The translations under genes were made by a program, and so were the position numbers. Shown in pieces: positions 39,842-61,976 of a stretch of DNA of 64,000 nt. Below the pieces are notes generated by a model. That model had not been told where the DNA came from and ran no database searches. It saw nothing but the letters and a program-made list of their open reading frames with translations. The stretch's first letter is position 1; every line of letters begins with the position of its first letter. This DNA is from Brachybacterium endophyticum (lineage in GTDB: Bacteria; Actinomycetota; Actinomycetes; Actinomycetales; Dermabacteraceae): NCBI RefSeq assembly GCF_003130585.1, contig NZ_QFKX01000002.1:868001-932000 (forward strand). Direction: 5' to 3'.

Positions 39842-39880
39842 CAAGAGCCCGGAACCCCTGCAGAGGGTTCCGGGCTCTTG
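39842..39880. terminator. Bidirectional terminator between MFS gene and leuS
   Basis: A perfect 16-bp inverted repeat: CAAGAGCCCGGAACCC (39842-39857), 7-nt loop, GGGTTCCGGGCTCTTG (39865-39880). It lies 60 nt after the symporter stop and 45 nt beyond the leuS stop on the other strand. Confidence 0.88.
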
Positions 39881-39925: not shown

Positions 39926-42853
39926 TCAGATCACGATGTTCACCAGCTTCGGGGCCCGCACGATCACCTTGCGGATCTCCGCGTCCCCGACCAGCTCTCG
40001 CACCCGCTCCTCGGCCAGCGCCGCCTCCTGCAGTGCGTCCTCGGTGATCTCGGGATCCACCTCGATGCGATGGCGGACCTTGCCCTTGATCTGGATGACG
40101 CAGGTGACGGCCTCGGCCTTCAGCAGATCCGGATCCGCCGCGGGGAAGCGCTCGCGGGTGACGGTGGAGTCGTGGCCCAGACGGGACCACAGCTCCTCGG
40201 CCAGGTGCGGGGCGAGGGGTGCCAGCATGATCACCAGCGGCTCGATCGCCTCGCGCGGCGAGCTGCCGGACTTGGTCAGATGGTTGACCAGCTCGATGAG
40301 CTTCGCGATCGCGGTGTTGAACCCGAAGCCCTCCATGTCGCGGGCCACGCCGTCGATCGTGCGGTGCACGGCCTGCATCGTGGGCCGGTCGGCCGGCTCC
40401 TCGCTCACACGCAGCTCGCCGCTCTCCTCGTCCACGACCAGGCGCCACAGCCGCTGCAGGAAGCGCTGGGAGCCGACCACGGCGCGCGTCTCCCAAGGGC
40501 GGGAGTCCTCCAGGGGCCCCATCGACATCTCGTAGACGCGGAAGGTGTCGGCCCCGTACTCGTCGTACATGTCGTCCGGGGTGACGGCGTTCTTCAGGCT
40601 CTTGCCCATCTTCCCGTACTCCTGGGAGACCGGCTCGCCGTCGTAGGTGAAGGTGCCGTCGTCCTCGGCCACGACCTCCTCGGCCGGCACGTACATGCCC
40701 CGAGCGTCCGTGTAGGCGTAGGCCTGGATGTAGCCCTGGTTGATCAGGCGGTGGAAGGGCTCCTGGCTGCTGACGACGCCGCGGTCGAACAGCACCTTGT
40801 GCCAGAACCTCGCGTACAGCAGGTGCAGCACGGCGTGCTCGACGCCGCCCACGTACAGGTCGACACCGCCCACGTCGCCCTCACGCCGCGGCCCCAGCCA
40901 GTAGCGCTCGTTCTCGGGGTCGACCGCGTGGGCATCGTCGGTCGGGTCGACGTAGCGCAGCTGGTACCAGGAGGACCCTGCCCACTGCGGCATCGTGTTG
41001 GTCTCGCGCAGGTACTCCTTGGGGCCCTCGCCCAGGTCCAGCGTGACGTGCACCCAGTCGCTCGCGCGGGCCAGCGGCGTCTGCGGCTCGGTCTCGGCGT
41101 CCAGCGGGTCGAAGGTCTTCGGCGAGAAGTCGGTGACCTCGGGCAGCTCGACGGGCAGCATGCTCTCGGGCAGGGCGATGGGGGTCAGCGGGTCCGCGGG
41201 GTCGTAGACGACCGGGAACGGCTCGCCCCAGTACCGCTGGCGGGAGAACAGCCAGTCGCGCAGGCGGTAGGTGGTGCGGGCGCGGCCGAAGCCCTTGGCC
41301 GTCGCGTACTCGGTGGCCAGGCGCTTGGCCTCGTCCTTGCTCAGACCGTTCAGGTCCAGCTCGTCGTTGGCCGAGTTGATCTTGGCGCCCTCGCCCGTCC
41401 AGGCCCCGCCCTCGAAGTCGGCGGGCGGCTGGACGGTGCGGATGATGGGCAGCTCGAAGCGCTCGGAGAAGGCGTTGTCGCGCTCGTCCTCGGCGGGCAC
41501 GGCCATGATCGCCCCGGTGCCGTAGCCGGTCAGCACGTAGTCCGCGGTGAACACGGGCAGCAGCCTGCCGTCCATCGGGTTCTCGGCGTACAGGCCGGTG
41601 AACACTCCCGTCTTCTCGCGGTCCTCCGAGGTGCGATCCTCCTGGCCCAGGGCCGCGGCGCGCTCGCGGTAGGCGCGCACGGCCTCCCGAGGATCCGCGG
41701 CCCCGCCCGTCCAGGCGTCGTCGGTGCCCTCCGGCCACGCGGCCGGCAGCGCCTCGACGTCGGCCAGCAGCGTGTGCTCGGGGGCCAGCACGCAGAAGGT
41801 CGCACCGAACAGGGTGTCGGCCCGGGTCGTGAAGACCTCGAAGCCGGTGCTGCCGCTGCCGTCGTCCTGGCGCCCACGGATCCCGAAGCGGATCTCGGCG
41901 CCGTGGGAGCGGCCGATCCAGTTGCGCTGCATCGAGCGCACGGCCTCGGGCCACTGCACGCGGTCCAGATCCTCCAGCAGACGGTCCGCGAAGGTCGTGA
42001 TCCGCATGTTCCACTGGCGCAGGCTGCGCTGGAAGACGGGGAAGTTGCCGCGTTCGGAGCGTCCCTCGGGGGTGACCTCCTCGTTGGCCAGCACGGTCCC
42101 CAGGCCCGGGCACCAGTTCACCGGTGTCTCGGAGATGTAGGCCAGGCGGAAGGACTCGGCCAGCTCCCGGATCTCCGGCTCGGAGGCGGCAGGCACCTGG
42201 TCCGCACCGCGACCCTGCCAGGTCTCGGGCAGCGTGATGTTCTGATGGTCGGCCAGCGCGAAGGGATCGACGGTGCCGGCGCGCAGCTCCTCGACCAGCT
42301 CGCTGATCGGGCGTGCGCGGCCGCGCACGCCGTCGGCGTTGGCGGCGGAGGGGTCGAACCAGGAGTCGAAGACCTGCAGGAAGATCCACTGCGTCCACTT
42401 CACGAACGCCGGGTCGGTGGTCGCGAAGGAGCGGCGCGGATCGTGGCTCAGGCCCAGCCGGTGCAGCTGGCGGCGCATGTTCGCGATGTTCGCCTCGGTG
42501 GTGGTGCGCGGGTGCGTGCCCGTCTGCACCGCGTACTGCTCGGCGGGCAGCCCGAAGGCGTCGTAGCCCATCGTGTACAGCACGTTCTTGCCCAGCGTGC
42601 GCTGGAAGCGGGCGATCACGTCGGTGGCGATGTACCCCAGCGGGTGGCCCACGTGCAGCCCCACCCCGGAGGGGTAGGGGAACATGTCCATGATGTACAT
42701 CTTCTCGGGCAGGTCCGCGGGCTCGGTGCCGTCGCTCAGCGGGCCCACGGGATTGACGGACTCGTAGGTCCCGTCCTCGTCCCAGCGCCGCTGCCAGCGC
42801 GTCTCGATCTCCTGGGCCATTGCGGCCGTGTAGCGGAAGGGTGCCTCGCTCAT
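39926..42853 (-). CDS. leuS: Leucyl-tRNA synthetase
   Basis: 975 aa class-Ia enzyme that charges tRNA-Leu. HIGH-type motif [11 protein letters not shown] near residue 60 and KMGKS (KMSKS variant) in [12 protein letters not shown]; a CP1 editing domain is present between them, including [11 protein letters not shown]. Longer than the Escherichia coli enzyme (860) by inserts in the region of residues 115-190. Start ATG at 42853 with GAGGA about 10 nt upstream; the open frame extends upstream but that region is a structured leader. The leader encodes a short Leu-rich peptide and an intrinsic terminator, implying attenuation control. Confidence 0.96.
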
Positions 42854-42904
42854 GGGGTGGTGTCCTCGGGTAGATGGTCCGCGGGGCGCGCCCGCTCGGG
42901 CATG

Positions 42905-42929
42905 AAAAAACCCCCGCACAGGCGAGGGG
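42905..42929 (-). terminator. Intrinsic terminator (attenuator) in the leuS leader
   Basis: In the leuS transcript sense: CCCC, bulged U, CGC, loop CUGU, GCGGGGG, then six T (42910-42905). It stands 52 nt before the leuS ATG. It is the only run of six T/A next to a stem seen near a gene in this GC-rich window, a strong sign of regulated premature termination. Confidence 0.8.
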
Positions 42930-42954
42930 AGCCGCGACGGTCCTCGATCCTCGC
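42922..42954 (-). promoter_or_regulatory. Candidate antiterminator pairing in the leuS leader
   Basis: GCGAGG (42954-42949, transcript sense) can pair with CCTCGC (42927-42922), which is part of the 5' arm of the terminator. It also overlaps the 3' side of the upstream hairpin (42953-42974), giving mutually exclusive structures. Pairing is inferred by eye. Confidence 0.4.
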
Positions 42955-42974
42955 TCCCGCGGTGGGGCGGGAGC
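42953..42974 (-). promoter_or_regulatory. Upstream leader hairpin (pause/protector stem) of leuS
   Basis: Perfect 8-bp stem GCTCCCGC/GCGGGAGC with a 6-nt loop, starting 6 nt after the stop codon of the leader peptide. Confidence 0.55.
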
Positions 42975-42980
42975 GGCGAG

Positions 42981-43019
42981 TCACCGGCGCGGCTGCGGAA
43001 GCAGGAGCGAACGTGCCAC
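42981..43019 (-). CDS. leuL: leuS leader peptide (12 aa, three consecutive Leu codons)
   Basis: GTG start at 43019; peptide [12 protein letters not shown], stop TGA at 42981-42983. The three consecutive leucine codons are CTC, CTG, CTT; CTT is expected to be rare at this GC. TAGGAT stands 6 nt before the GTG, so the peptide would be translated from the very 5' end of the mRNA. Followed by a hairpin, a possible antiterminator and a U-tract terminator before leuS. This is the textbook layout of ribosome-mediated attenuation. Small size prevents any homology test from sequence alone; the symbol is by analogy. Confidence 0.65.
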
Positions 43020-43025
43020 GGGGTG

Positions 43026-43031
43026 ATCCTA
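43026..43031 (-). promoter_or_regulatory. -10 element (TAGGAT) of the leuL-leuS transcript
   Basis: TAGGAT on the minus strand, 6 nt before the leader-peptide GTG. No clear -35. Confidence 0.5.
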
Positions 43032-60754: not shown

Positions 60755-61834
<1,080 letters not shown>

Positions 61835-61976
61835 GGTGATTCCCTCCACCGGCAGGTACGTGCCGGACGATCCGTTGTGAAGTGTCATGAGTGCCGATGC
61901 AGCAGTGCACCGCCTCGAAGGCATGTGGGCAACATCGCACCGGCGATCGGAAGTGTATCCCAGATCTCAGGGTGCT

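Follow-up and report, generated by a model that had tools for sequence, protein, structure and literature searches.

A leucine-codon leader and intrinsic terminator upstream of leuS in Brachybacterium endophyticum, with a conserved stem abutting the terminator

What kind of control element precedes the leucyl-tRNA synthetase gene of Brachybacterium endophyticum, and can its parts be arranged into a working switch? The window analysed here, a 64-kb stretch of the genome, carries on its minus strand a gene for a protein of 975 amino acids (39926..42853; ATG at 42853) that by sequence and relatives is leuS, its closest named LeuS relatives being three Brachybacterium proteins with 77, 79 and 76% identity over the best segment. 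Upstream and on the same strand, a -10 promoter element, TAGGAT (43031-43026), lies 6 nt before a GTG (43019) opening a 12-aa leader frame (42981..43019; TGA at 42983-42981), predicted to be leaderless, which contains three consecutive Leu codons, CTC CTG CTT (43007-42999), as putative sensor codons. These are followed by an 8-bp hairpin (42953..42974; GCTCCCGC at 42974-42967 with GCGGGAGC at 42960-42953), an intrinsic terminator stem-loop, CCCTCGC-CTGT-GCGGGGG (42911..42928), a U6 tract (42905-42910) located 51 nt from the leuS ATG, and, by eye, a likely leuS Shine-Dalgarno sequence, GAGGA (42863..42867). The -10 element, GTG frame, Leu codons, 8-bp hairpin and U6 terminator were all present as a first-pass annotation of this DNA had described them. 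A T-box or riboswitch was considered as an alternative identity and rejected, as Rfam 15 returned no family above its gathering score at this locus; the top of three sub-threshold matches was anti-hemB, at 19 bits against a cut-off of 49.5.

Searches of the same genome indicated that this combination of features is rare. In 464 kb (the window and a further 400 kb from this genome; both strands, 928,000 strand-bases), a -10 box followed by a leaderless frame with LLL within its first ten codons was found once, at this element. Likewise, a strict scan of both strands of the 464 kb for U-tract terminators (TTTT, stem 6-12 bp, loop 3-8 nt) found this terminator alone, with loops longer than 8 nt, such as that of a terminator before ilvB, missed at these settings. 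Four consecutive T residues are very rare here, TTTT occurring 14 times and AAAA 10 times on one strand of 400 kb. The predicted fold of 42853-43018 has a z-score of -2.97, and 3 of 200 shuffles were equally stable. A candidate second leuS-type copy was rejected: the sole other match to the leuS model, at E 0.92, is a leaderless ILLL leader before a leuA-like gene. This locus (L189; G000:C13:287347-287422) carries the leaderless frame MPGTILLLSRRVEA, its downstream gene being read as leuA-like by eye, and it is possibly the LEU element named in the accessible text of PMC1262725.

Within the genus, the frame, LLL and -10 box were identified in all 37 Brachybacterium leuS upstream regions, this locus included, and the terminator in 36, the exception being L008. 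These regions comprise 30 and 7 loci from two sets; 37 other genomes are listed in the genus, and a 38th genome (G029), cut near a contig end, was left out. The earlier proposal of a Leu-codon leader, predicted to be leaderless, and an intrinsic terminator before leuS is therefore upheld by the genus, and the check suggested with it, conservation of the short frame and U-tract stem in relatives, found both conserved and brought no refutation. Independent recognition came from a covariance model, R2, trained on 17 leaders from outside Brachybacterium, some with the leuL2 peptide described below. Its only match in the window (up to E 1) was 43019-42903, at E 1.3e-4 on a rough calibration, and it also matched 36 of 36 other Brachybacterium loci at E<=3.1e-4. 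As no Brachybacterium sequence entered the model, these matches strengthen the case for homology, and they point to a sequence and structure common to this element and Streptomyces-type leaders.

Beyond the genus, a second model, R1, was derived from an alignment of 28 of 31 listed leaders (L125, L042 and L123 were left out) and applied to a class-wide sample, in which a LeuS N-terminus search at E<=1e-30 retained 69 of 148 genomes and set the other 79 aside. From the 68 other matching class genomes, 60 leuS upstream regions were fetched. R1 matched 43 of 75 leuS upstream loci at E<=1e-3 (34 of 60 in the class sample and 9 of 15 in the same family); 16 of the 43 had gone into R1, leaving 27 independent matches, and LL or a longer Leu run was present in 42 of the 43. 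In the class sample the element is kept in nine families (f1, f3, f4, f6, f13, f21, f22, f29 and f34), and neither method found it in families f8, f17, f20 and f27 (4, 5, 10 and 3 loci). Among other genera of the same family its distribution is patchy, with the element present at L123 and L125 and absent at L119, L121, L122, L124, L126 and L127 (G044 left out). Leaders of relatives ahead of leuS read MRAVRLLLSEPR, VRGLLLLIGPR, VRTGLLLTEPR, MRAQPLLLVQPR and similar. In 15 named actinobacterial loci (L033-L046 and L057, out of 80 LeuS loci), 8 carry the element within 230 nt upstream: three Brachybacterium, a Hamadaea MAG, Catellatospora bangladeshensis, Pseudonocardia sp. MH-G8, Paractinoplanes and Actinoplanes. 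In a phylum-wide sample searched with stricter filters, which make the count a lower bound, R1 found a match at E<=0.01 in at least 21 of 296 genomes. Outside the class, three genomes of one genus (G269, G423 and G435; L204-L206) carry leaders with LLL that end in LLL-x-x-PR, with a LeuS-like start downstream, by eye, in two of them (L205 and L206); G248 and G298 gave weak R1 matches only, with no LLL leader by eye.

Several variants depart from this common form. In Brachybacterium, L008 retains the Leu frame and the long-range stem described below (stem A) and has lost the terminator U tract. At L182 / L207 (G115), the -10 element, frame, stem A and terminator stem are kept, and the peptide reads VASQQQRLIGPR, in which QQQRL, with Gln codons, replaces the Leu run. 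Three f29 loci (L154, L157 and L184) keep the frame and stems and have no U tract; a longer hairpin takes the place of the terminator and, judged by eye, its 5' arm may run about two bases into the end of stem A, a layout nearer that of C. glutamicum ilvBNC than are the other leuS leaders. In all, 5 of 81 elements were without a script-detected U-tract terminator (L008, L154, L157, L180 and L184, of which L180 has one by eye), and 6 of 76 were dropped as duplicates, giving 70 distinct elements.

The start of the leader frame bears on how it would be translated. In 43 of 43 R1 matches, including all 27 independent ones, a start codon occupies model position 1 and TANNNT lies 6-7 nt upstream, a spacing found at 0 of 580 other ATG or GTG codons on the same strand of the same loci. 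R1 begins at the start codon, so that the -10 box is outside the model; its 28 leaders had been chosen by -10 box. The elements used for the genus reading, geometry and folding were also selected with the -10 box as a condition, and the tests free of this selection are the R2 searches and the count of start codons and -10 boxes among R1 hits (bar the 16 of 43 that built the model). We infer from this spacing that the leader in Brachybacterium would be initiated leaderlessly. The constancy of the spacing agrees with the leaderless transcription of leuL2 of Streptomyces lividans reported in the accessible part of PMC8079986; given that report, a leaderless sensor peptide, which the first-pass annotation had thought would be notable, is not new.

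Closer inspection of the aligned leaders revealed a conserved structure that had been missed. In the 28-leader alignment, the end of the leader frame (AGCCGCG...) pairs with the bases directly before the terminator (...CGCGGCT), forming stem A. At this locus its 5' arm (42983..42994) lies within the end of the frame and its 3' arm (42930..42941) stops 1 nt upstream of the terminator stem, AGCCGCG (42994-42988) pairing with CGCGGCT (42936-42930) and CGGT (42986-42983) with ACCG (42941-42938), with one C-U mismatch in this species' copy. Among aligned cells of stem A, 95.6% are paired compared with 89.2% in shuffles, above every shuffle in both tests, and 30 are changed on both sides, as against 9.8 in shuffles and no more than 5 once the partner strand was slid, again above every shuffle. 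RNAalifold recovers stem A unaided. The number of its pairs with any two-sided change was not above shuffles (60 of 500 and 126 of 1000 as high), the number of further pair types was below them (498 of 500 as high), and four of the eleven pairs are invariant. The terminator also keeps its pairs with two-sided changes among relatives, and its number of pairs with any such change was not above shuffles (527 of 1000). The loop between the stem A arms varies in length and sequence among relatives, and it is within this loop that the 8-bp hairpin sits. The hairpin is thus present, as the tip of stem A in this species, and is not conserved; the switching role once assigned to it lapses, and the conserved structure is stem A.

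Stem A begins 4-5 nt past the last Leu codon in 66 of the 70 distinct elements, and the gap between stem A and the terminator is 0-2 nt in 67 of 70 (0-1 nt in 61), with no overlap, in an allowed range of -4 to +44. The Leu run has three codons in 56 elements, four in 11 and two in 3. The 70 elements are related, 37 of them coming from family f1, and these counts are not independent. The stop codon is variable in position: it falls at the start of stem A, inside it, or 37-41 nt past its start, and in Brachybacterium it is a TAG one codon past the Leu run or a TGA at +11, +22 or +37 to +41 from the stem A start, the last of these in 21 of the 36 terminator-bearing genus members. The leading edge of a ribosome lies at about +16 from the P site. 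With this general value, a ribosome holding the first Leu codon in its A site would have its edge at 42995 in this locus, and stem A begins at 42994. As regards chance, a flush contiguous stem of equal strength arose in 2.5% of shuffles of this locus alone and was also found at 7 of 87 other loose terminator-like sites in the genome; flush stems were no commoner than other offsets at those 87 sites, a weak control, since the majority are unlikely to be genuine. In the 464 kb the strict scan yielded no second terminator with which to make this comparison, and the fetched loci supplied only 6 other sites.

To follow the two structures as a ribosome moves along the leader, 68 elements were folded with ribosome positions masked in four states, a structure being scored as formed at a probability >0.5. 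These are the 70 minus L016 and L123, for which no flush stem was detected automatically, although a short stem is visible by eye in L123 and L016 was given a gap of 1 in another reading. Stem A formed in all 68 elements when the A site held the first Leu codon and in none when it held the last; 62 formed it as free RNA, and 18 did so when the ribosome sat at the stop codon. The terminator likewise formed in all 68 in the first-Leu state, against 65 in each of the free, last-Leu and stop-codon states, and it persisted throughout the four states in 63 of 68. In the folding model, stem A therefore reports the position of the ribosome, and no removal of the terminator by stem A is predicted; given that the two stems share no bases and the terminator persists, base pairing alone would give no switch. 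The frame, -10 element, Leu run, terminator, spacings and covariation of stem A belong to the sequence itself, and the dependence of stem A on the ribosome comes from folding. The doubt raised in the first-pass annotation about the order of switching was justified, mutual exclusion being absent from the predictions.

We propose, with a probability of roughly two in three, that the element is a ribosome-dependent transcription attenuator that tunes leuS to the supply of charged tRNA-Leu, with stem A blocking the terminator by abutment. RNA polymerase would start at or beside the GTG, and a 70S ribosome would begin the leader without a Shine-Dalgarno sequence. When Leu-tRNA is plentiful, the ribosome would pass CTC CTG CTT and enter the 5' arm of stem A, preventing stem A; the terminator would then fold and transcription would end before leuS. 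When Leu-tRNA is short, the ribosome would stall as the first Leu codon occupies its A site, placing its edge where stem A begins, so that stem A could fold. The GC-rich stem A, abutting the base of the terminator, could not enter the RNA exit channel, the lowest terminator pairs would stay open, and polymerase would read past the unclosed terminator into leuS. The conserved 0-2 nt abutment suggests that stem A acts by position; the stall, the sign of regulation, the response to leucine and the manner in which stem A would stop the terminator are the parts of this scheme that we infer. More specifically, an attenuator whose antiterminator contains no terminator bases and which blocks by exit-channel abutment, between the edge of the stalled ribosome and the terminator, is put forward tentatively and is open to considerable doubt. 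In the 21 of 36 genus members whose stop codon lies beyond the stem A 5' arm, a ribosome at the stop would leave that arm uncovered, so that the ribosome would have to act in passing rather than while sitting at the stop. Counted against the proposal are the persistence of the terminator in folding, the formation of stem A in free RNA (62 of 68), L008 with its lost U tract and L182 with its Gln codons, together with the report, in the accessible text of PMC1262725, that substitution of the regulatory codons ahead of ilvBNC in S. coelicolor had no effect.

A different way of connecting the parts would be a classical trp-type attenuator, in which a segment of the loop or leader pairs with a terminator arm as an overlapping antiterminator, and PMC1262725, in its accessible text, does describe the leuS leaders of Streptomyces as classical, comprising an antiterminator and a terminator hairpin. 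At this locus GCGAGG can pair with CCTCGC, the terminator probability drops to 0.54 once the ribosome has reached the stop codon, and the Leu segment could pair with the terminator 3' arm at -10.9 kcal/mol compared with -11.9 for the terminator; further, 6 of 68 elements have a loop pairing that equals the terminator in strength. The sign at this locus is nevertheless wrong for such a switch, with less termination once the ribosome finishes, and across the family the median for the Leu segment is only -5.7 kcal/mol. Set against shuffled loops, the loop pairs with the terminator 5' arm no better than expected by chance, reaching p<=0.05 in 1 of 68 elements, and with the 3' arm slightly better (8 of 68), so that the alternative pairing mentioned in the first-pass annotation stays at or near the shuffled level. 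A common strand with mutual exclusion was tested in this leuS family and not found, the terminator survives all four states in 63 of 68 elements, and the loop of stem A is not conserved. We therefore consider a classical overlap quite unlikely.

The compatibility of stem A and the terminator in folding would also suit a pause or timing hairpin, with stem A holding polymerase until the leaderless ribosome loads and coupling then setting termination, without an antiterminator. A pausing role is assigned to the first ilvBNC hairpin in the accessible portion of PMC11857589, but a mere pause hairpin needs no 0-2 nt gap to the terminator, and yet 67 of 70 elements have one, which makes this reading unlikely as well. 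The same closeness, 0-1 nt between the stems in 61 of 70, would permit coaxial stacking, by which stem A might promote termination and stalling lower leuS. A synthetase gene turned off when charged tRNA-Leu is short would make little physiological sense, however, and this direction is opposite to the ilvB1 result in the accessible text of PMC13236596; such stacking is very improbable. Attenuation by abutment remains our preferred reading.

With regard to known systems, which we compare through the accessible portions of the cited papers, the leuS leader is most likely a known actinobacterial kind of leader-peptide attenuator, that of leuL2. Described in 2021 with transcript data, leuL2 of Streptomyces lividans is a leaderless 12-aa leader before leuS (PMC8079986). 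Both leaders have a leaderless (predicted here) peptide of 12 aa with three consecutive Leu (MRAVRLLLSEPR in leuL2), a hairpin, a U stretch and leuS, and peptides identical to that of leuL2 occur in the sampled genomes, where their leaders align with this locus. Unlike leuL2, the peptide here differs from MRAVRLLLSEPR and the stop codon shifts among Brachybacterium; stem A and its spacing are not described for leuL2 in the accessible text of PMC8079986. A 2005 study had already put forward candidate leuS attenuators in S. avermitilis and S. coelicolor (PMC1262725); these share the Leu-codon frame and the antiterminator and terminator hairpins before leuS. They are termed classical in the accessible text of that paper, whereas hairpin overlap was tested here and not found, a comparison made by description rather than base by base.

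The nearest experimental parallel to the abutment is C. glutamicum ilvBNC, in which antiterminator and terminator bases adjoin (PMC11857589). Corynebacterium ilvBNC and ilvB-II have, as here, a uORF with branched-chain codons and two hairpins, the second a U-tract terminator (PMC11857589, PMC10272879). In contrast to the leuS stems, which share no bases, the ilvBNC hairpins share GCC (PMC11857589), and in ilvB-II the P2 shoulder pairs with the P1 loop (PMC10272879). M. tuberculosis ilvB1 similarly combines a uORF with sensor codons, a terminator and an anti-terminator, and changing its LVVI codons to Ala abolished induction; it differs in gene and codons, and its two structures are mutually exclusive (PMC13236596). 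The main text of a 50-genome RNA survey (PMC11109978) mentions neither leuS nor Brachybacterium. In the openly licensed literature, as far as it is accessible, we found no earlier mention of a leuS leader for Brachybacterium and no earlier account of the stem A spacing, the latter being weak evidence of absence.

The layout may extend to other leaders. Two Streptomyces-like ilvB leaders (L211 and L212), with the peptide MRTRILVLGKRVG printed in the accessible part of PMC8079986, fold as a stem with a directly adjoining terminator. The ilvB leader of this genome (MQTIILVLPERG) has this order too when inspected by eye, its stem measuring 6 bp, but its predicted fold lacks that stem. This leader (L213), about 200 nt upstream of an ilvB-like gene on contig C13 of G000, has TACAGT before its leaderless MQTIILVLPERG frame and a long-loop U-tract terminator after it. 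The two Streptomyces-like leaders have the layout of the leuS element, which may be a common actinobacterial design.

Taken together, the leuS leader is real and widely conserved, and the feature that merits experiment is the conserved abutment between stem A and the terminator. An attenuator reported in a few Streptomyces is here identified in nine families of the class sample and, beyond the class, in a single genus represented by three genomes, and it gains exact, testable spacings. If abutment does operate, programs that seek overlapping terminator and antiterminator strands would miss attenuators of this kind.

Two further features of the window were observed. The known cis-regulatory RNA family msiK (RF01747) is matched at 61834-61892 on the minus strand with 59.3 bits. 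Just past the leuS stop codon lies a strong inverted repeat, GAGCCCGGAACCC...GGGTTCCGGGCTC (39845-39877), readable on both strands and without a long U tract, which is perhaps a two-way end signal between leuS and a convergent transporter-like gene.
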